Positions 3,199 through 17,519 of a DNA stretch of 28,376 nucleotides are shown here, piece after piece. The position numbers were made by a program, and so were the translations under genes. The number at the start of each line of letters is the position of its first letter. The stretch's first letter is position 1. The notes below the pieces were generated by a model. The model was not told the DNA's origin, searched no databases, and saw only the letters and a program-made list of their open reading frames with translations. The stretch spans positions 1 to 28,376 of the IMG/VR virus record IMGVR_UViG_3300009180_000170, one strand, 5' to 3'. Source of the stretch: a virus.

Positions 3199-5628
3199 TT
3201 ATGATAACTCGCCTGTGTTAACAACACGAACTGGAATGTAAATGAACTCAGCAGCCTTAACTGGCTCGATGGCAACATCTACATATAATTCGTTTCTGTC
3301 AATTCTAGCAGGTGTGTTGTTTGTTTCATCACAGACAACAATGAAGTCATAGATAGCACGTTTGGCAAGCAACTCGCCTAGGAAACTATCAAATACTTGT
3401 TTTACGTTAGCACGAGTAATCTTGTCGTTTGGTTCAAATATGAACGGACGTGCAAGAGGATCAAAACGCTCACGTAAGTAAGCCAATAAACGAGCAACGT
3501 TAACTCTATCTAAAGCACTAGAACCAGTTTGTAATGTTTTCTGACCGAAAACATAAACACCTTGTCCTGGGAAACGTGCAATTGGATTTAAACCAACTCT
3601 ACTGCCATCGCCATACAATGTATCACGCTGACCTGTTGTCAATGCCACTGGTATAAATTCGCCTTCTCCGTTGATGTAACCCACGTTACTTGCATTGGTT
3701 ACAACACCGCGTGTTAAACCAGCTGGAGCGAACCAAGGATAAGCAACTTGGTCGTTGTATGCATAAGTTCTTAGAACAACGTGACTTGCTGGAACAACAA
3801 CATCGTTGCCACTTAAATCAGTTGCCAATGCACTTGGATAGTAACATGCTGCCTGATATGCAGAGCCACCGCTGACAATTAAACCATCTTCGCCTGTGCT
3901 ACTTGCATTATTACCGCTCATCCAGTCAATTAATGTTTGACCTTGTGGGGCTAAACGCAATGGAGTATCTACGATAACAAATGCTGTTTCTTTACGATCT
4001 GTGTTCAATGACAACATTTCGTCGATTAGTTCTGGATAACCTGGAGCCGCAATCAGTGTAAAGAAGGTCATTTCTTCACGAATTGTTTCATTGCTAGAAA
4101 CCGCGCTTTGTAATGATTTAACTACTGCTCGACGTTGTGCTTTACGCAACATATATGGGCTACCGTCTTCTTTGTTACCGCTGAATGTAAACCATGCTTT
4201 GTCGCCTGTAGCAACACCGCTGGCATCTAGTACATCACTGTATTGTTTAACGTTACCCGTTGAAACAATACCATTCCATAATAAAATACCATTTGGATAC
4301 AATAAAGGATCAGGAGCATTTTCGTCAACTGCCGTTGCACCGCCTGTGCCATTTGTAGTGTCGCTTGGTGTATATGTTAAATCAGCAAATACAACACCAT
4401 TAGGAGTTGTTTGATCTGTTACATTGCGAGAAACCCAAGAACTACCATCGTATTCATAAATTGCAGGATAGTTTTCTACATCACTACTGTCAATCCAGAA
4501 GTCACCGTTTGCAGGACTACTCGGAGAATTAGAATCGATAGTGATATCGGTGCCTATCGGTTCCCATTGACTATTTGCTTTTACATATAAGTCAACTGCC
4601 AAACTAGTATTGTACCATAATGCACCGTCTATTGTTGCACCTACAGGAGCACTAGCACCAGATTGTTCATCTAATGAACTCCAATTGCTGCCGTCATAAT
4701 AACGTAATTCTACATTGGCACTTCCAGTGTCTGCTTTAGCATATACTTTACCTGCAGATAATGCACTTGCAAAACCTGTAGTGGCCGCCGAGTCATTGGC
4801 ATAAACAGGAGTTGCTACAATTACCCACGGGCTACTGTCTGGAATATTAGCACTTACATATTTTTTAACTGCTAAACTTAAACCATTGTTAGGACTTGTA
4901 GTCTTTAACCATACATCGCCAGCCGCTGTTGCTGTAGGAATATTGTAGTGAGCTGAAACAAAAACTGTAGGGATTGCAGTATTTGTTGTTGTACAAATTT
5001 CCCAAGCGCCTGATACTTTTTTATACACTTGATAACTAGAAACTGTAGAAGTTGCTACAACTGCATAATCACCGTTGGCACCAATGCCAACATAAGGAGT
5101 AACACCCAAACTGTTAGTAGTGTCGTTGGCGTCAGTGATAACTAAAGGAGTTTTTGCAACCCAACTAGATGTACCAATTGCTGATGCTTCAAAAATACCC
5201 CAGCTTGTATTAGCCAAGTCTAGCCAGTATGTACCATTGGCAGGTGCGCCAGCTGGTTCAATGTCTGTTGGTTCTAATTGTAGCAAATCAATGTCTGCAC
5301 GTAAAACATAAGCACGATTGGCAAGACCCAAATAGCTGTAAGCAGACAATAAGCCATACTCGTTGACTTCTGAACCATGTACTGCTGTACCGTTTACTGT
5401 TTTAAATTTTGGTTGACCAAATTGCTCGACAAGTTCGCGTTGACTTGTTAGCAAATAGGGCTTATTGGCATTTGCAGGAATTGTTCCTGTTGCATAGCCT
5501 GTGCCACTTACATTGTCTTTGTTAGACTGTGTGGCTAAAATGATTAAAGGAACTGTTCCTTGGCCAGCAGATCCGAATTGACTTTGGTCAATAATCGAAA
5601 TCTCTACGCCTGGTGATGTTAGTGCCAT
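3199..5628 (-). CDS. 18: Contractile tail sheath protein gp18
   Basis: This 809-aa protein begins MALTSPGVEISIIDQSQFG, the typical sheath N-terminal arm, and ends with the sheath C-terminal domain: KITRANVKQVFDSFLGELL, then a YDFIVVCDETNN segment and a final FIYIPVRVVNTGEL strand. T4 gp18 is 659 aa. The extra length is in the middle (about residues 120-420), which holds at least four copies of a small module of the form G-x-x-W-x-D ... Y-x-G-x-x-W, probably surface-exposed decoration domains. Sheath subunits contract to drive the tube through the envelope. The gene is preceded by one or two late promoter boxes and a strong GGAG site, as expected for a highly made protein. Confidence 0.93.
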   Translation of the reverse strand: MALTSPGVEISIIDQSQFGSAGQGTVPLIILATQSNKDNVSGTGYATGTIPANANKPYLLTSQRELVEQFGQPKFKTVNGTAVHGSEVNEYGLLSAYSYLGLANRAYVLRADIDLLQLEPTDIEPAGAPANGTYWLDLANTSWGIFEASAIGTSSWVAKTPLVITDANDTTNSLGVTPYVGIGANGDYAVVATSTVSSYQVYKKVSGAWEICTTTNTAIPTVFVSAHYNIPTATAAGDVWLKTTSPNNGLSLAVKKYVSANIPDSSPWVIVATPVYANDSAATTGFASALSAGKVYAKADTGSANVELRYYDGSNWSSLDEQSGASAPVGATIDGALWYNTSLAVDLYVKANSQWEPIGTDITIDSNSPSSPANGDFWIDSSDVENYPAIYEYDGSSWVSRNVTDQTTPNGVVFADLTYTPSDTTNGTGGATAVDENAPDPLLYPNGILLWNGIVSTGNVKQYSDVLDASGVATGDKAWFTFSGNKEDGSPYMLRKAQRRAVVKSLQSAVSSNETIREEMTFFTLIAAPGYPELIDEMLSLNTDRKETAFVIVDTPLRLAPQGQTLIDWMSGNNASSTGEDGLIVSGGSAYQAACYYPSALATDLSGNDVVVPASHVVLRTYAYNDQVAYPWFAPAGLTRGVVTNASNVGYINGEGEFIPVALTTGQRDTLYGDGSRVGLNPIARFPGQGVYVFGQKTLQTGSSALDRVNVARLLAYLRERFDPLARPFIFEPNDKITRANVKQVFDSFLGELLAKRAIYDFIVVCDETNNTPARIDRNELYVDVAIEPVKAAEFIYIPVRVVNTGELS

Positions 5629-5632
5629 TTGT

Positions 5633-5676
5633 TTTCTCCTCTATAGGTTATACATATTTATACTATTTCGGAGAAA
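5633..5676 (-). promoter_or_regulatory. Anti-ribosome-site element flanking the gp18 late promoter
   Basis: On the minus strand TTTCTCC (5676-5670) is exactly complementary to the gp18 ribosome site GGAGAAA (5639-5633). The late box TATAAATA lies in the 30-nt loop between them. RNA reading through from upstream could pair the two and hide the ribosome site, while RNA starting at the box lacks the upstream arm. The stem is only 7 bp with a long loop, so this is weaker than the gp13 case. Confidence 0.4.
5655..5662 (-). promoter_or_regulatory. Late promoter TATAAATA for gp18
   Basis: A perfect match to the T4 late promoter on the minus strand, 26 nt upstream of the gp18 ATG at 5628. The leader contains GGAGAAA. 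Confidence 0.75.
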
Positions 5677-6816: not shown

Positions 6817-6845
6817 ATTATATAGCAAACAAATCTACTTGTCAA
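6817..6845 (-). promoter_or_regulatory. Perfect sigma70 promoter (TTGACA-N17-TATAAT) for the nucleotidase
   Basis: The minus strand has TTGACA at 6845-6840, a 17-nt spacer, and TATAAT at 6822-6817. The seventh base after the -10 is the A of the nucleotidase ATG (6810), so transcription is expected to start at or next to the start codon. Confidence 0.85.
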
Positions 6846-6852
6846 CGGTATT

Positions 6853-7044
6853 TTACTTTTTAGGAGTGGGATTTTCGCCAGTTAATTTTGGTCTAGCGAA
6901 CCATAACTTGAACCATTCGTCGGTGCCTGGACGAATGTTATTCTTACGCATGTACTCACCTTTGTCTGTTCCAATCTCACCGGTGATGGGACTGACTGCA
7001 TTTTTATCAATGCCGGCAAGTTTGCGTAATTTATCTTTATCCAA
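6853..7044 (-). CDS. Small phage protein of unknown function after gp13 (63 aa)
   Basis: A 63-aa basic protein ending in a Trp/Pro-rich segment (EWFKLWFARPKLTGENP). It starts at TTG 7044, overlapping the last 8 nt of gp13, with a weak GGGA upstream. No ATG start is available in frame that keeps the N-terminal LRKLAG helix. I have an impression of similar short proteins in other T4-like marine phages, but no function comes to mind. Translational coupling to gp13 suggests a head/neck or assembly role. The reading frame is supported by its compact fit between gp13 and the promoter at 6817-6845. Confidence 0.65.
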   Translation of the reverse strand: MDKDKLRKLAGIDKNAVSPITGEIGTDKGEYMRKNNIRPGTDEWFKLWFARPKLTGENPTPKK

Positions 7045-7783
7045 TTATGAATCCCAATGGGTCACTGCCGTCTGCATATAGTTTTAAGTCTTCTTCTAAC
7101 TTTTCCATGTCGGCGGCTGCTTCTGATTTTAAATTGTCACCATTTAAACTTGTTCCACCTTGTGGTCCTGCAATAGTACTAAACTTACTACGAGCTTCTC
7201 CTAATATAAACTTGGCCTGTGCCATGGCGTAGTCTTTGATCCAAGGACCACAATATACATCGTTTAATAACTCGTCATCGGCTTTTTCAACAAACGTCCA
7301 AAGATACACTTCGTCATCTGCTCTAAACTTACGGTGTATGAATAACGTACGATCACTAGGATTAAATGTAAAAGTGCAGTATGCTCCGAACATACGTGCT
7401 AAAAGTTCCCTGCGATCTGCATATAGTTCATAGTTTAATAAACCTGAGAAGTTGGTGTTACTTTGTAATAACATGTTACTCAAGTACATTGTATTGAATG
7501 GTTCGAAGTCAACACCAGTACTGCTAATGCCCATGGCACCAGTGCTTCGTAAAAATACATCACGAATATTAACCACCTGTTGCGGCAGTTGATATTCTTG
7601 CTGTTCCATTTTAATGTTTAACTTAAGAAACTTTTCTATAACTGATCTACTGCCGCGTTGACGATATTTGCGTAGTGCTTTTGAAATAGCCAGCTCATAG
7701 TGATCTGAATCCAGTTCGACATCGACCATACCGCCACCTAGGCGTAATTCTATCTCTCTAATTAATTCGTCTTTCACGCTCAT
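7037..7783 (-). CDS. 13: Neck protein gp13
   Basis: A 248-aa protein whose N-terminus (VKDELIREIELRLGGGMVDVELDSD) follows the T4 gp13 pattern of ELK-x-x-I-x-x-RLG-x-P-x-x-x-VEL-T near the start. The next segment, with a long alternating-strand middle (QQEYQLPQQVVNIRDVF) and aromatic C-terminal half, also fits. gp13 closes the filled head together with gp14 and joins it to the tail; T4 gp13 is 309 aa. The ATG has GGGAG upstream, but that site lies inside a 10-bp inverted repeat with a late box in the loop. In T4 gp13 and gp14 are adjacent. Here 5.3 kb of accessory genes on the same strand and a strand switch separate them. Confidence 0.8.
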   Translation of the reverse strand: MSVKDELIREIELRLGGGMVDVELDSDHYELAISKALRKYRQRGSRSVIEKFLKLNIKMEQQEYQLPQQVVNIRDVFLRSTGAMGISSTGVDFEPFNTMYLSNMLLQSNTNFSGLLNYELYADRRELLARMFGAYCTFTFNPSDRTLFIHRKFRADDEVYLWTFVEKADDELLNDVYCGPWIKDYAMAQAKFILGEARSKFSTIAGPQGGTSLNGDNLKSEAAADMEKLEEDLKLYADGSDPLGFIIG

Positions 7784-7787
7784 AAGA

Positions 7788-7821
7788 AAATCTCCCGTTA
7801 TGTATATTTAGCGGGAGATTT
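7788..7821 (-). promoter_or_regulatory. Ribosome-site-sequestering hairpin with late promoter in its loop (gp13)
   Basis: A perfect 10-bp inverted repeat, AAATCTCCCG (minus strand 7821-7812) and CGGGAGATTT (7797-7788), has a 14-nt loop. The right arm contains the gp13 ribosome site (GGGAGA), 4-8 nt before the ATG. The loop contains GCTAAATA. Long transcripts from the upstream accessory operon would form the hairpin and block gp13 translation. Late transcripts starting about 6-10 nt after the box lack the left arm. This is the known arrangement of T4 gene e and similar genes; its operation here is inferred. Confidence 0.65.
7805..7812 (-). promoter_or_regulatory. Late promoter box GCTAAATA for gp13
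   Basis: GCTAAATA on the minus strand, 22 nt before the gp13 ATG, within the hairpin loop. It is a one- or two-base variant of TATAAATA and recurs upstream of gp18. Confidence 0.5.
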
Positions 7822-7840: not shown

Positions 7841-8674
7841 TTAGTCTACTGCCGGGCTAAAGGCTTTTACTTGCTGGATTTTTGTTTCAATTTTAACTTC
7901 GTCAAAATAGACAATCTGTGTTGGCATGGGTCCATTATTTCTGCTAATCAAGGTGTTGTAAATACCATATTTAACAAAGAAATCTTTGGCTGTGTAATTA
8001 ACAAGAGGTTTGTTAATCGAACCTTTAAGTTGTCCATTTACATAAACGTGAACAAAACCCTGGGTCTGTGAAGTTGAAAAATGTAATGCTACATCTGTCC
8101 ATTTTTCTTTCATCTCATCAATCTTAGACATTTTAATATCTGTACATACCGTGGTTCCAGCTGCCGGGTTTGTTAATTCTTGCCAACAAAAGTTGTACTC
8201 GTTGCCCAGCATGTATAACTGAAACAGTGATGGTGCTGATGCAAAACCTGCATAAGTACCAGTGGGACCGTTTCTAGGTTTGATTTGTCCAACAGTGCTT
8301 TTTACAGTACTAGAAGTTTGAAAATCATTTGGCAGAAACAAAGAGAATGCAAACCAGTATTCTTTACCGCTTGTCATATTTTGTTCTACTACGACCTCGG
8401 TTCTAGAACGATCAGTAGTGCAATCATTCCATCCTGGCTGAGTAGCACAATCACCTGCTCGCAACTCAAATCGTTGAGCAGTTTTTCCAGCTCTAACAGG
8501 CTCTGGATTTTGAACTATTTGATAGCCATGAGGCGTGTTGCTCAATGACCTAGTCACTGTGAGTTTTTGGTACCTATCAGTAGCAACAACATCATTTTTG
8601 ACAATTTCAGCATTACCACTATAACATGCTGTTAATAAAACAATTAATAATGAAGCTAATATGGTTTTTTTCAT
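7841..8674 (-). CDS. Lipoprotein with polysaccharide-lyase-like (concanavalin-fold) domain
   Basis: A 277-aa secreted lipoprotein. The signal peptide MKKTILASLLIVLLTAC ends in the lipobox LTAC with Cys17 as the lipid anchor; Tyr at +2 does not signal inner-membrane retention, so the outer membrane is likely. From residue about 60 the sequence follows a polysaccharide-lyase/jelly-roll family (glucuronan or heparin lyase-like): QRFELRAGDC, DRSRTEVVVEQNM, YWFAFSLFLPNDF, VGQIKPRNGP, LFQLYM, then a lectin-like HVYVNGQLKGS strand and YFDEVKIETK near the end. Four Cys in the body may form disulfides. It would cleave or bind acidic polysaccharide at the cell surface. It is last in the accessory operon, 57 nt before gp13. 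Catalytic residues cannot be assigned by eye, so a binding-only role remains possible. Confidence 0.72.
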   Translation of the reverse strand: MKKTILASLLIVLLTACYSGNAEIVKNDVVATDRYQKLTVTRSLSNTPHGYQIVQNPEPVRAGKTAQRFELRAGDCATQPGWNDCTTDRSRTEVVVEQNMTSGKEYWFAFSLFLPNDFQTSSTVKSTVGQIKPRNGPTGTYAGFASAPSLFQLYMLGNEYNFCWQELTNPAAGTTVCTDIKMSKIDEMKEKWTDVALHFSTSQTQGFVHVYVNGQLKGSINKPLVNYTAKDFFVKYGIYNTLISRNNGPMPTQIVYFDEVKIETKIQQVKAFSPAVD

Positions 8675-8687
8675 TTAATTTTAGTAG

Positions 8688-10109
8688 TTATTGAGTTGTA
8701 AAAAATAAGTCAGGATTTTTAGATGCGTATGGGGCAATACCTACTACATTATTTTTTGTTTGAATAGTCCACCATTCAATCCAAGTTCCTAACTGATTAT
8801 ACAATAATGAAGATATCTTAGTAGATACGTTATAGGCTTGCAATACATTGTTAGAATAAGTTGTTCTGCCAATATAAATTACTGTTTGATTACTTGCATT
8901 TTGCGCTACAGTAAAGTCAAGTGCAGAAGGAGCTTCTGCAATACCGGGAATAACTGTTTTACGTGTTCCAAAAGTATTATTAGAATTTCCATATAGAACT
9001 ACTGTTTCAGCAGAGCCGATGGGCGATTCATGTCCACCTGCAATTATATCAATGATTCCATCTTTATCTACGTCGACTAATTCTACAGAATAATATCCAG
9101 CAGTATTACCTTGTCCAAAAATTCTATTATTATCAAATACAAAGGTTCCATTTTTTTGATTAATCAATGCTGTGATATTGGCGCCGGGACTTCTGAAACT
9201 ATCTGTAATAACAATATCAATCCATCCATCTCCATTTACGTCTGCGGCGGCGGCACCGTGATAATAGCTGGTACTGGTTGTGCCAACATCTGATACTGCA
9301 AATTTGCCTTGACCTTTAGAATCATTTAACAATAGTTTATTAATTTCGCCTGGCCATTTACCATTTACTTGCATATCCCAGCCGTGACACACAACAAAAA
9401 TATCAGGGTGACCGTCATTGTTAAAATCAGCAACAACGGCTTTTCTCGGAGTAAGACATCCTGCTATTTTTGTAGTAGTGGATTCAAGATTACCGTTGGC
9501 GGACAATTTAAAAAATTGAAACTCTGCTCGATGTTCATCTTTGATATACATAGGTGCTGTACCTATACAATTAGGATCGATGCCATTTGGCTTGTAACAT
9601 TGCAGACTGTTTGACTTGGCAATCATTACTGCCATCTTATTATCTCCAAAGAAATTTCCAACAGCCCAAGCCGAAGTATAATTATTAGGATTTACAATAT
9701 TTAATCTTGGAATATTTTGCAACTTTGCATTTTCATAAGATGTTTTGTACAAGGTTATTGTCGATACCGGCGAAGATGCGCCAACCGATAACACTGTTCC
9801 TACATTAATAATAACGTCATAGTAAACAAACCCATAGGCGCTTACACTGGGAATTGTAAGTTGATTTTTATATGGATCATATGAATCATAAGTAGTGCTT
9901 GGCTTTGCTGGATATTTTGAATCCAGACTAGAACCGCCTACAGTTAAGATAGGACCAACTGTGATAACAACATCACGGTAAATTATTTCTCCCACCAACA
10001 CCGCTGGAATAGTTAGTTGATTGTTTACATGATTATATGTGTCTGTGGCATAAACTATAGGAGAGAAAAATGCCAGCAACGATAAAAATAATTCATTAAT
10101 ATATTTCAT
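8688..10109 (-). CDS. Secreted FG-GAP/VCBS beta-propeller protein
   Basis: A 473-aa exported protein. The signal peptide ends near residue 21 (SPIVYA then TDT). Two copies of a 30-residue unit follow (residues 30-60 and 82-112, each beginning NQLTIP and ending in a VGxxLxVGxSS motif), a type I associate with betaproteobacterial surface proteins. The rest is a beta-propeller with three calcium loops: DFNNDGHPDI (from 228), DVNGDGWIDI (from 290) and DVDKDGIIDI (from 346). Such propellers usually bind sugars or proteins outside the cell. It starts one base after the 58-aa lipoprotein stop and ends 13 nt before the lyase-like lipoprotein, so the three are one operon. No anchor is visible. Target and role are unknown. 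Confidence 0.78.
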   Translation of the reverse strand: MKYINELFLSLLAFFSPIVYATDTYNHVNNQLTIPAVLVGEIIYRDVVITVGPILTVGGSSLDSKYPAKPSTTYDSYDPYKNQLTIPSVSAYGFVYYDVIINVGTVLSVGASSPVSTITLYKTSYENAKLQNIPRLNIVNPNNYTSAWAVGNFFGDNKMAVMIAKSNSLQCYKPNGIDPNCIGTAPMYIKDEHRAEFQFFKLSANGNLESTTTKIAGCLTPRKAVVADFNNDGHPDIFVVCHGWDMQVNGKWPGEINKLLLNDSKGQGKFAVSDVGTTSTSYYHGAAAADVNGDGWIDIVITDSFRSPGANITALINQKNGTFVFDNNRIFGQGNTAGYYSVELVDVDKDGIIDIIAGGHESPIGSAETVVLYGNSNNTFGTRKTVIPGIAEAPSALDFTVAQNASNQTVIYIGRTTYSNNVLQAYNVSTKISSLLYNQLGTWIEWWTIQTKNNVVGIAPYASKNPDLFFTTQ

Positions 10110-10110
10110 A

Positions 10111-10287
10111 TTAACCGCCGTTCTTTTTTAGTAGAGGTGCAAAGGGATCAGTTGGTGCAGGTGTTGCTGGTTGAGTAGGCAATGACTTCCCCAGTGCTTC
10201 CTGAAAAGGATTTGCCTGAGTTGCCACACTTCCTCCGCCACCACAGGCAGTTAATGTTACTGCTAAAATTAAAATTAAATTTTTCAT
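10111..10287 (-). CDS. Small lipoprotein (58 aa)
   Basis: A short gene starting at ATG 10287 and overlapping the stop of the 398-aa gene as ATGA. It encodes MKNLILILAVTLTAC, a lipoprotein signal with Cys15 as anchor. A GGGGS linker and a Pro/Thr/Ala-rich 35-residue tail (TQPATPAPTDPFAPLL) follow, so the mature protein is only about 44 residues. The AC-GGGG start is common among betaproteobacterial lipoproteins. The mature part has no fold I recognise. It could be an anchor or partner for the propeller protein encoded immediately after it, or an entry/exclusion peptide like other tiny phage lipoproteins. The compact tail-to-head packing with neighbours supports the call. Confidence 0.75.
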   Translation of the reverse strand: MKNLILILAVTLTACGGGGSVATQANPFQEALGKSLPTQPATPAPTDPFAPLLKKNGG

Positions 10288-11480
10288 TTGTATACCTTTA
10301 ACAAAATTACATCTGTACTTATACGTCCGTTAAGTTTGATCTCTGTGCTTTTAATTCCTTTAAACCATTTCTTAGCGGCAGGCTTGCCATTGGCACTAAA
10401 CTCTTTAATCTGTTCTTTTGGCTTGCGTAGGGTTTTTTGCACACTTGCTGTGGCGTCAAATCCCATAATAGAACTGTTCTTAACTGTTAGTGTACCTGCA
10501 TATTGGTCTGCAATGTAGATACCCAACTTGCGTGTCTTAGTATTGTAAACCCATAGCTCTTGTGCTGTAAGGATTGTAGTCGGATCTGCACTTTTGAGAG
10601 CCAACTCTTTAAACTCTTTTGCGTACTTCAATTTGGCCACTACCTTCTCCGGCAGTACTGCTTTCTTCTTACGTGGAGCTTTGCTGGCTTTCTTAACTAC
10701 ATTGTAGCTGTTAGCATCTGTTAGAGCCTGTGTCCACCATTTAACCATGGCAGTAATCTGGCGCTTGCCTAAATGCTTGTAAGCTTCTAATACCTGAGGA
10801 TCTTTGCTGTTGTTGACTTCTTCAAATTCTGAGATCTTTTTGCTGATGAACTCTGTTACAGTTTTAACCTGTACTGCTGGCACATTCATTTGTGTCATCA
10901 ACTCCACTAGTTTAGGCTCGCCTTTAAACTCCGCAATAAAGTCATCAAAGCGACCTTCTAGTTCTCCCAAGAACTCTGACGTCTTTTCTGCCATGCGTTC
11001 TTGTATATTGAACTTGGGCTTGTCGTCTACTACAACTTCTGCAACTTGAGCAGAAGTATCAACGCCTTTGTCCGCTTGTTTAAGTTGTTTAACCAATGTA
11101 CGTAGTGTACCAAACCTTAGTGCCAAGCCGACACGACCTGCTCTTAGTGCAAAGCCAACTGTGGTACCGGGCCACATGTCGCCGCGACGAACTGCATCTG
11201 CTGTTTTTTGGCGGCGTGGATTACGTGCAAGGAATTGACTAAGCCATTCTGCGCTTTTCTTTTTGTCTTGTGTGTGTGCGTACCAATTAAGTGTACGCAT
11301 TACCTGTGTCCTGTACTCACTATCAGTCCAGGCCTGTTGTTCTTCTACGCTGGGGTAAGTGGGCTCCTCGCCAACATACTTGACATCTACTTCTCGGTAG
11401 ACAACTGTTTTGGCAAGGGGCTCGTAGCGCCATGCCAATTTATCTGTGCTTGTTTGTTTAACTGCTTTTTTGGTGGCCAT
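10284..11480 (-). CDS. Unknown 398-aa basic protein heading the accessory operon
   Basis: A 398-aa Lys-rich protein without signal peptide or membrane span. Residues 1-130 contain YRTQVMRTLNWYAHTQDKKK and a basic Arg-rich segment (RNPRRQKTADAVRRGDMWPG). A helical middle follows, and the C-terminal third has an ELWVYNTKTRKLGIYIAD segment then TLRKPKEQIKEF. I have a vague impression of similar conserved hypothetical proteins in T4-like marine phages, with no known role. The basic charge suggests nucleic-acid binding, but no motif proves this. The gene has a perfect sigma70 promoter (11503-11531) and an AGGAG site 7 nt before the ATG, so it should be made early, and it is coupled by ATGA to the lipoprotein gene. 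Confidence 0.72.
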   Translation of the reverse strand: MATKKAVKQTSTDKLAWRYEPLAKTVVYREVDVKYVGEEPTYPSVEEQQAWTDSEYRTQVMRTLNWYAHTQDKKKSAEWLSQFLARNPRRQKTADAVRRGDMWPGTTVGFALRAGRVGLALRFGTLRTLVKQLKQADKGVDTSAQVAEVVVDDKPKFNIQERMAEKTSEFLGELEGRFDDFIAEFKGEPKLVELMTQMNVPAVQVKTVTEFISKKISEFEEVNNSKDPQVLEAYKHLGKRQITAMVKWWTQALTDANSYNVVKKASKAPRKKKAVLPEKVVAKLKYAKEFKELALKSADPTTILTAQELWVYNTKTRKLGIYIADQYAGTLTVKNSSIMGFDATASVQKTLRKPKEQIKEFSANGKPAAKKWFKGIKSTEIKLNGRISTDVILLKVYK

Positions 11481-11502: not shown

Positions 11503-11531
11503 ATTATACACTAACTTCTATTTTGTGTCAA
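11503..11531 (-). promoter_or_regulatory. Perfect sigma70 promoter (TTGACA-N17-TATAAT) for the accessory operon
   Basis: TTGACA at 11531-11526, a 17-nt spacer and TATAAT at 11508-11503 on the minus strand. The element overlaps the last codons of the metallopeptidase gene. Its -35 context AATTGACACAAA is identical to that of the promoter at 11981-12009. The transcript would cover the 398-aa, lipoprotein, propeller and lyase-like genes. Confidence 0.88.
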
Positions 11532-11991: not shown

Positions 11992-12009
11992 GACATCAAT
12001 TTGTGTCAA
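11981..12009 (-). promoter_or_regulatory. Perfect sigma70 promoter (TTGACA-N17-TATAAT) for the metallopeptidase
   Basis: TTGACA at 12009-12004, a 17-nt spacer and TATAAT at 11986-11981 on the minus strand, starting 2 nt after the porin terminator T-run. The expected leader is about 20 nt and carries GGAG. Confidence 0.88.
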
Positions 12010-12033: not shown

Positions 12034-12054
12034 GTGCTAATCAATTACTATTAA

Positions 12055-12936
12055 TTAGAAACGGTGTGTTAAACCAACACCAATTTGTTCTACGTCACGT
12101 GATGTTCCAACGGCATCAACATTGCGATATACAACACCTACATCAGTACGTTTACTAAACGCATATTCTACACCAACTGCATAGGCTTTAACATCTGTAC
12201 TCGTTGTACCATAACTTGCTTTAGCAGTAACAGCACCAAATGATTGACTTACACCAATTAAATTACCCGTGCTGTTTACGGCACCTTCATTGTCACTGTA
12301 AGTATAAACTACTGTGGCTTTACCAACTTTAGTATTCAACCCAACTACTGTACTTTTTTCAGAGCCGGCAGTATAAGTTGCCACAGTACCATTGACACCA
12401 TATGCACCAGCACTCAGGCTATAAGAACTTGCATCAGCACCCGTTGCATTGTGAGCATTATCAGCAGTAAGTGTTACACCTTTCATAGGAGTAATGCTAA
12501 CGAATGTACCATTGCTCATACGTAGACCGCGTAGGTTATGAACATCGCCGGCAATAGAACCATACATAACTCCGAATACATCGTTCTTAGCAATAGCTGA
12601 GAATTCGCTGTGAACATTGCGACCTAAATTAATGCTGCCTAATTTGTTCGATAGACCAACTGTTGATTGACGATCTCCTAATTGAGTGTCGGCTGATTTT
12701 GGATCGTTTGCAAACAGTTTAGTATCGATAACAACTGAAGCTGTCAAATCGTTGCCTAATGTTTCTGAACTTCTAAAAGTGATATTACTAGTAGGTTCCG
12801 AAGCCATACTATTAACTGTGGTAACCCCAGTTTTTGTGCTATCAATATATTGTCCGATTTTACCAGAAACGGTAGGTTGAGCCGATGCTACAGTTGTTAC
12901 TAATACCAACACGGTTGCTAAGATTGTTTTTTTCAT
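12055..12936 (-). CDS. Outer-membrane porin, betaproteobacterial general-porin type
   Basis: A 293-aa exported beta-barrel protein. The signal peptide MKKTILATVLVLVTTVASAQ ends in ASA-Q. Family features are an SNITFRSSETLGNDLTA segment (compare SRWGLKGSEDLGGGLKA of neisserial/burkholderial porins), RQSTVGLSNKLGSINLGRN (compare RQAYVGLSGSFGTVTLGRQ), a repeated amphipathic strand pattern with aromatic girdles, AFSKRTDVGVVYRN, and a terminal GVGLTHRF with the C-terminal Phe needed for BAM recognition. It is shorter than typical 340-400 aa members, so loops are probably trimmed. ATG 12936 follows AGGAAA and begins the signal peptide. It has its own promoter and terminator and is divergent from gp14. 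It would form a channel in the infected cell's outer membrane. Confidence 0.88.
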   Translation of the reverse strand: MKKTILATVLVLVTTVASAQPTVSGKIGQYIDSTKTGVTTVNSMASEPTSNITFRSSETLGNDLTASVVIDTKLFANDPKSADTQLGDRQSTVGLSNKLGSINLGRNVHSEFSAIAKNDVFGVMYGSIAGDVHNLRGLRMSNGTFVSITPMKGVTLTADNAHNATGADASSYSLSAGAYGVNGTVATYTAGSEKSTVVGLNTKVGKATVVYTYSDNEGAVNSTGNLIGVSQSFGAVTAKASYGTTSTDVKAYAVGVEYAFSKRTDVGVVYRNVDAVGTSRDVEQIGVGLTHRF

Positions 12937-12986
12937 ATTAAATTTCCTTTTTTTGTTTAGCAAATTAAAATAATTTACTATCTTAT

Positions 12987-16897: not shown

Positions 16898-17487
16898 TTA
16901 ATTTTCTTTAACAGTAATTTCTTAGCTGGGGCCTGTTCTTTAGAGTTAGATTCAGGTTGAGGTTGATTTGGCTCTGGAGCCGAAATTCCAATTTCCATTT
17001 CAGCGTTGGCTGTGGCAACTTTAATTGCATTTGCTAATTTAACGCAAATTTGTGTGGACTTAATGTATAAGTCTTCGGGTAGTTTGACCATTTTGCTCAT
17101 AGTTTCAACTGTGGGTCTTCCAAAAGTTAATAACTCTATAGCAGCCTGTTTGCCTAAAAAGTTTACCCAGTAGTCTTGTTCGGAATCTTGCCAATTATTA
17201 ACAGCGTCCGTTAATGTTGCAGTATCTTGTTGATCTAGAATTTTTAGTAGTTTAGATTTTTCTTCTTCTAAACATAGTTTTTCAAAAGTTCGAGTTTCTG
17301 TTTCCAGATCACTGTCGATCTTTCTAATTTTATTAATTATATCTATGACAGAACGCGAGTATGCTGATCCTGCGAGATTATTAAAATTTTCTTGTTCAAA
17401 ATCACTGAGAACATGAAACGGGCAAGAATCTAGCAATTCTTTATACCTGTTATTTGTTGGTTTAGCAGTTGTCTTTTTTGTGGTCAT
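16894..17487 (-). CDS. Unknown 197-aa protein before the glycosyltransferase
   Basis: A 197-aa protein with a Lys/Thr-rich start, a helical middle (two helices with ELLDSCPFHVLSDFEQENF and a Leu/Glu-rich segment) and a Pro/Gln/Glu-rich tail ending KKLLLKKIK. No signal or membrane span is present. I do not recognise it. It has a late promoter and a hairpin over its ribosome site, and its stop overlaps the glycosyltransferase start, so it is a late protein probably linked to that enzyme or to virion assembly. Confidence 0.65.
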   Translation of the reverse strand: MTTKKTTAKPTNNRYKELLDSCPFHVLSDFEQENFNNLAGSAYSRSVIDIINKIRKIDSDLETETRTFEKLCLEEEKSKLLKILDQQDTATLTDAVNNWQDSEQDYWVNFLGKQAAIELLTFGRPTVETMSKMVKLPEDLYIKSTQICVKLANAIKVATANAEMEIGISAPEPNQPQPESNSKEQAPAKKLLLKKIK

Positions 17488-17491
17488 AAAA

Positions 17492-17519
17492 AAATACCTT
17501 GATGTTATTCAAGGTATTT
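17492..17519 (-). promoter_or_regulatory. Ribosome-site hairpin overlapping the late promoter (197-aa gene)
   Basis: A perfect 11-bp inverted repeat AAATACCTTGA/TCAAGGTATTT with a 6-nt loop. The left arm overlaps the TATAAATA box, and the right arm contains the AAGG ribosome site 8-11 nt before the ATG. Read-through RNA would be folded, while RNA started after the box would lose most of the left arm. This is the same logic as at gp13. Confidence 0.6.

Follow-up and report, generated by a model that had tools for sequence, protein, structure and literature searches.

The stretch of DNA analysed here, hereafter the window, measures 28,376 bases and is a fragment from the record of a T4-related virus. 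No direct DNA similarity between the window and sequenced phages was found; judged by gp13, its nearest sequenced isolates are the jumbo phages Phosso, PA5oct, Atu_ph07 and the RaK2 group (∼33–43% identity). The gp13 gene (positions 7037–7783, minus strand, as are all window features named below) encodes a 248-residue neck protein, the head-tail adaptor Ad2 (PHROG 211, E = 1.8e-32). The minus strand also carries nucleotide-metabolism genes (5′-nucleotidase and dNMP kinase), the gp18 tail sheath gene and genes for gp19-type tube proteins. The order gp13 – dNMP kinase – tail sheath is found as well in PA5oct, Hallingskeid, CBB and others.

Directly 5′ of the gp13 start codon (ATG, 7783–7781), AAATCTCCCG (7821–7812) and CGGGAGATTT (7797–7788) pair perfectly across the loop CTAAATATACATAA (7798–7811). 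The 5′ arm is present only in RNAs arriving from upstream; the 3′ arm contains the Shine-Dalgarno sequence GGGAG(A) (GGGAGA, 7796–7791) and is followed by the tail TCTT (7787–7784), which leads to the ATG. From the G-C pairs of the stem to the start codon runs a U-rich stretch, TTTTCTT (7784–7790), a feature of intrinsic terminators. A preliminary description of this DNA had proposed a perfect 10-bp stem containing a GGGAGA ribosome site, and we find this stem base by base on the minus strand. It had also placed the promoter GCTAAATA in the loop, where the late-promoter core CTAAATA (7811–7805) indeed lies, but the G of the motif is the last base of the stem. The hairpin folds as RNA with −13.7 kcal/mol, compared with −4.3 ± 2.1 kcal/mol for shuffled sequences (z = −4.6; 0 of 200 as stable), and perfect 10-bp inverted repeats spaced 3–20 nt apart occur 8 times in the window, against 0–3 across 20 shuffles. 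Together with the paired arm changes reported below, these values rule out a chance hairpin.

The operon upstream of gp13 comprises a 398-residue first gene (10284–11480, phrog_11903), an FG-GAP repeat protein gene (8688–10109, PF13517) and, as its last member, a gene for a polysaccharide-lyase-like protein (7841–8674, PF14099, E = 1.1e-25). Perfect sigma70 consensus sites at 12009–11981 and 11531–11503, the latter TTGACA-17-TATAAT and directly before the 398-residue gene, agree with the sigma70-driven operon lacking a visible terminator that had been proposed: apart from the terminator-like gp13 hairpin itself, we found no good terminator on the minus strand between these promoters and gp13. 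The 11531 promoter is presumed to be early, and its transcripts presumably reach gp13. Measured from the genes, a perfect TTGACA-17-TATAAT lies 3.7 kb upstream of gp13 and 1.2 kb upstream of gp18, and the perfect consensus site at 6817–6845 stands before the nucleotidase and dNMP kinase genes that precede gp18. Further upstream of the FG-GAP/polysaccharide-lyase-like gene run lies a gene for a Gram-negative porin (12055–12963, PF13609, E = 3.2e-25), which is unusual in a phage. Between positions 12044 and 11981 a stem-loop terminator, CCCGCTTCGGCGGGTTTTT, is followed at once by the perfect sigma70 promoter, and the promoter at 11531 opens with a near-identical sequence, AATTGACACAA.

We scanned IMG/VR, in which the relatives' contigs are metagenomic fragments, with a pattern derived from the window hairpin. 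The scan returned 49 stretches, a count that is conditional on the pattern; their fixed position is not, and 47 of them lie 4–6 nt before a gp13 start. One of the remaining two is cut by a contig end and the other, in L043, precedes a different, inserted gene. Nearly all near relatives keep the hairpin, while the gene upstream of it varies from relative to relative. Conservation of the arms as pairs had been named as a check on the proposal, and the arms show strong compensatory change: across 24 distinct leaders (alignment A3) 88.5% of the arm cells are paired, compared with 39–49% for slid partners, both sides have changed in a compensated manner in 9 of 13 pairs, and double-change cells number 35 versus 8.5 in shuffles. 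The arms read CTCCTG/CAGGAG in L027, AATCCCTGTT/AACAGGGATT in L158, GTGCAGTCTTC/GGAGACTGCAC in L166 and AAGTGTCTCC/GGAGACACTT in L172, and the stem of L026 is one pair shorter on both sides. The same layout is found in the gp13 leaders of RaK2-type jumbo isolates (Cronobacter phage GAP32, Pectobacterium phage CBB, XbC2, BF, E. coli phage 121Q, Munch, XaC1, Hallingskeid and Muenster) with arm sequences wholly unrelated to those of the window, for example ATCCCCTAAATA...TTTAGGGGTATTTTTTATG in GAP32 and GCACCTCTAAATA...GAGGTGCTTTTTTATG in 121Q.

L040 and L070 carry a hairpin, CTCCCGATAAATACA...TATCGGGAG, with the sequence of the window's clade, although their gp13 proteins are only ∼42% identical and are placed elsewhere in the tree; this leader may have moved between phages. 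In L043 the gp13-type hairpin (3709–3742) precedes an inserted, structural-looking gene with a GTG start, and gp13 itself follows 1.6 kb beyond the hairpin behind a plain leader. The gp13 leaders of L163 and L165 have no lock, the term we use for a paired ribosome site, and contain a strong separate hairpin, GCAGGGG...CCCCTGC, that stands after the late motif and before the ribosome site.

CTAAATA is no commoner in the window than expected by chance (3 occurrences versus 6.6 expected), and TAAATA is strongly concentrated 20–40 nt before start codons in the contigs of six relatives. At gp13 the motif sits between the two arms, so that an RNA starting there would lack the 5′ arm. If spacing follows the T4 late-promoter convention, as we assume, the predicted start falls at ∼7798 (± 1–2), the last base of the loop. 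The three largest of these contigs (G003, G005 and G006) encode a late sigma factor that matches phrog_12791 (E about 1e-78) and, with E about 1e-23 to 1e-25, the gp55 family phrog_234. A study of phage CBB describes the motif ATAAATA upstream of structural genes as well as a gp55-like factor, and its main text makes no mention of hairpins (PMC5259590).

Masking of ribosome sites in this manner is known from the T4 genes e (lysozyme), soc and 49, from I-TevI and segB, and from Aeh1 mobE, in agreement with the precedent that the preliminary description had cited: a helix masks the Shine-Dalgarno sequence in long RNAs, and a late promoter in its 5′ part lets late RNAs escape (PMC3014915, PMC2988022). 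We calculated the cost of opening the ribosome site as a predicted folding energy at 25 °C. For gp13 in the window it amounts to 12.7 kcal/mol in the long read-through RNA and to 0.9 kcal/mol in an RNA started in the loop; the positive control, T4 gene e, yields 17.2 kcal/mol in the long and 2.4 kcal/mol in the late RNA. The gp13 lock thus resembles gene e in its masked Shine-Dalgarno sequence, its late promoter and its similar predicted energetics. T4's own gene 13, located behind the late gene wac, differs from gp13 of the window: its ribosome site is open (0.4 kcal/mol), and no TAAATA was found in its leader.

Folding, opening energy and covariation agree that the ribosome site of gp13 is paired in the read-through RNA, and the late motif is placed such that a late RNA would be without the 5′ arm. 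The gene-e-type translation switch that had been suggested for gp13 is supported by the compensatory changes, the unrelated arms elsewhere, the gene-e-like energetics and the presence of the gp55 family. We consider it probable (about 0.78) that the gp13 hairpin is a lock of the T4 gene e type and a terminator, both bypassed by late starts in its loop.

Among 125 distinct gp13 leaders for which the direction of the upstream gene could be called (by simple ORF selection), a lock of at least 10 kcal/mol is present in 53 of 95 when the upstream gene is co-directional and in 0 of 30 when it is divergent (Fisher 3e-9). The remaining 42 co-directional leaders, PA5oct among them, have no lock. On the gp13 tree the lock requires 5 changes, at least 4 of which are forced by well-supported branches, and hence it has been gained or lost several times. 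A tree-aware test of orientation comprises 5 supported independent contrasts and is not significant. With just these 5 contrasts, the association is suggestive, not proven, evidence that the direction of the upstream gene decides whether the hairpin is present.

A run of at least four T between ribosome site and ATG occurs in 48 of 58 locked gp13 leaders compared with 5 of 64 unlocked ones; for other late leaders the count is 6 of 111, and for non-late leaders 6 of 137. Many relatives have T5–T8 before the gp13 ATG, and several have extended stems with loops of 5–7 nt; in the window, the stable stem is followed by the interrupted TTTTCTT, a modest example. A U-run behind the gp13 stem is the signature of an intrinsic terminator, and judged by this sequence feature early transcription is probably stopped too. 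With the terminator U-run present in most lineages, the gp13 element may block early expression at two levels.

The tail sheath gene gp18 (3199–5628; phrog_10581 and phrog_23) is a second locked gene in the window. Its 5′ arm, TTTCTCC (5670–5676), is kept and varied in relatives, its putative late promoter, TATAAATA (5655–5662), lies between the arms, and its 3′ arm, GGAGAAA (5633–5639), is the Shine-Dalgarno sequence and has no U-run behind it. An opening cost of at least 8 kcal/mol is predicted for 35 of 45 distinct gp18 leaders. Arm variants among relatives include CTCCTTATTGG/CCAATAAGGAG and AATATCTC/GGAGATATT, the RaK2-type isolates have AATCCTCC/GGAGGATT, and the loops of gp18 locks reach ∼30 nt.

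That the gp13 hairpin is merely the intrinsic terminator of the upstream operon, and that promoter and ribosome site overlap with it due to the short intergenic space, would fit the enrichment of U-runs in locked leaders and the extended stems with 5–7-nt loops. We nevertheless regard this explanation as unlikely. Ten locked gp13 leaders (e.g. L164, L166 and L172) keep the ribosome-site stem without a run of at least four T, gp18 locks lack a U-run and have the long loops given above, and what all these leaders share is a ribosome site paired across the late promoter. As locks without a U-run exist, a pure terminator is not sufficient; the gp18 leaders and the ten gp13 leaders instead identify the lock as the common core and termination as an added layer. 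Most gp13 examples share with intrinsic terminators a G+C-rich stem followed by a U-run, but differ from them in that the loop holds a late promoter and the 3′ arm is the ribosome site.

Leaders with an opening cost of at least 12 kcal/mol number 17 of 136 for late genes and 0 of 148 for non-late controls (relatives and window combined). An earlier, simple stem-score test had shown less enrichment (17% versus 5%), as gp13 arms were mixed among themselves in its permuted control, and the folding test superseded it. A sigma70 motif of 11–12 matches that belongs to the same gene run and lies no more than 6 kb upstream is found for 15 of 23 locked late genes versus 26 of 113 others (p = 2e-4, with orthologues counted separately). 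A paired change is also seen in the leader of a 106-residue protein, which reads ATGTGTATCTCT/GGAGATACACAT in G003 and TGTGTTTTTCT/GGAGAAACACA in G006. The window contains a third example before the gene at 17487, a perfect 11-bp stem, AAATACCTTGA-ATAACA-TCAAGGTATTT (17492–17519), with a U-run; here TATAAATA (17522–17515) overlaps the 5′ arm. The orthologues in G002, G004, G005 and G006 keep this hairpin with changed arms, and we found no sigma70 motif within 6 kb upstream of them.

It is very improbable that the hairpin is a recombination boundary at an insertion hotspot, comparable with the promoter-early-stem-loop (PeSL) cassettes of T4-type phages. Upstream of gp13 the neighbouring gene does vary widely while the leader stays constant, and L043 has an extra gene between hairpin and gp13, yet such a boundary accounts neither for the compensatory changes nor for a paired ribosome site nor for TAAATA lying between the arms, and could itself be a side effect of a conserved leader. 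PeSL cassettes of RB49/phi1-type phages reportedly join a stem-loop terminator to an early sigma70 promoter. The gp13 element likewise combines a stem-loop and a promoter at a hypervariable gene junction, but its promoter is of the late type and lies inside the loop, and no sigma70 site was found within the hairpin; the terminator and sigma70 promoter at 12009 resemble PeSL better. The inverted repeat could also be read as a DNA operator through which a repressor or activator acts on the late promoter, and the near-palindromic DNA around the promoter might point to this; we reject this reading, as arm sequence, length and spacing vary by lineage while pairing and ribosome-site overlap persist.

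Under the favored reading, a gene-e-type lock joined to a terminator, the gp13 hairpin would act as a cis-acting timing gate. Read-through RNAs from the sigma70-driven operon would carry both arms, and the stem would mask the gp13 Shine-Dalgarno sequence; stem and U-run would probably terminate many such transcripts shortly before the start codon of gp13. At the late stage of infection, a gp55-type late sigma factor would initiate inside the loop at ∼7798. RNAs started there would lack the 5′ arm and would therefore neither terminate at this site nor hide the ribosome site, allowing gp13 to be made. The same lock, without the U-run, would operate at gp18. Counting against this reading are the 42 co-directional gp13 leaders that have no lock, the lock-like hairpin of the 17487 gene family with no sigma70 motif within 6 kb, and the interrupted U-run of the window.

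The genes with known T4-type locks serve lysis or capsid decoration or encode endonucleases, whereas the locks described here stand before core neck and sheath genes. Unlike the T4 set, these locks span several jumbo-phage lineages, and at gp13 the U-run suggests termination as well. The lock principle is thus already known, and what appears to be new is its presence at core neck and sheath genes, its recurrence in several jumbo-phage lineages with arms that are unrelated in sequence, and the probable union of terminator, lock and promoter in one element. A literature search that covered few subscription journals returned no description of such an arrangement at gp13, at gp18 or in RaK2-type phages, and the novelty is provisional for that reason. 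We give even odds to the broader proposal that an element of 34 to 40 nt serves as early-operon terminator, as a lock on the translation of an essential virion gene and as the late promoter of that gene, that a start in its loop lifts both blocks (a 'self-bypassing terminator'), and that jumbo phages have retained it, or evolved it anew, at gp13 and related genes.

If this holds, a self-bypassing terminator would allow late structural genes to be placed last in early operons, which suggests a general way in which T4-related jumbo phages could combine early with late genes in a single transcription unit. Each late gene would carry its own lock, opened by the position at which transcription starts, and the lock would provide a signature for spotting late genes in unannotated phage genomes. 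GAP32, 121Q, CBB, Munch and RaK2-type isolates have culturable hosts, which makes the prediction directly testable.
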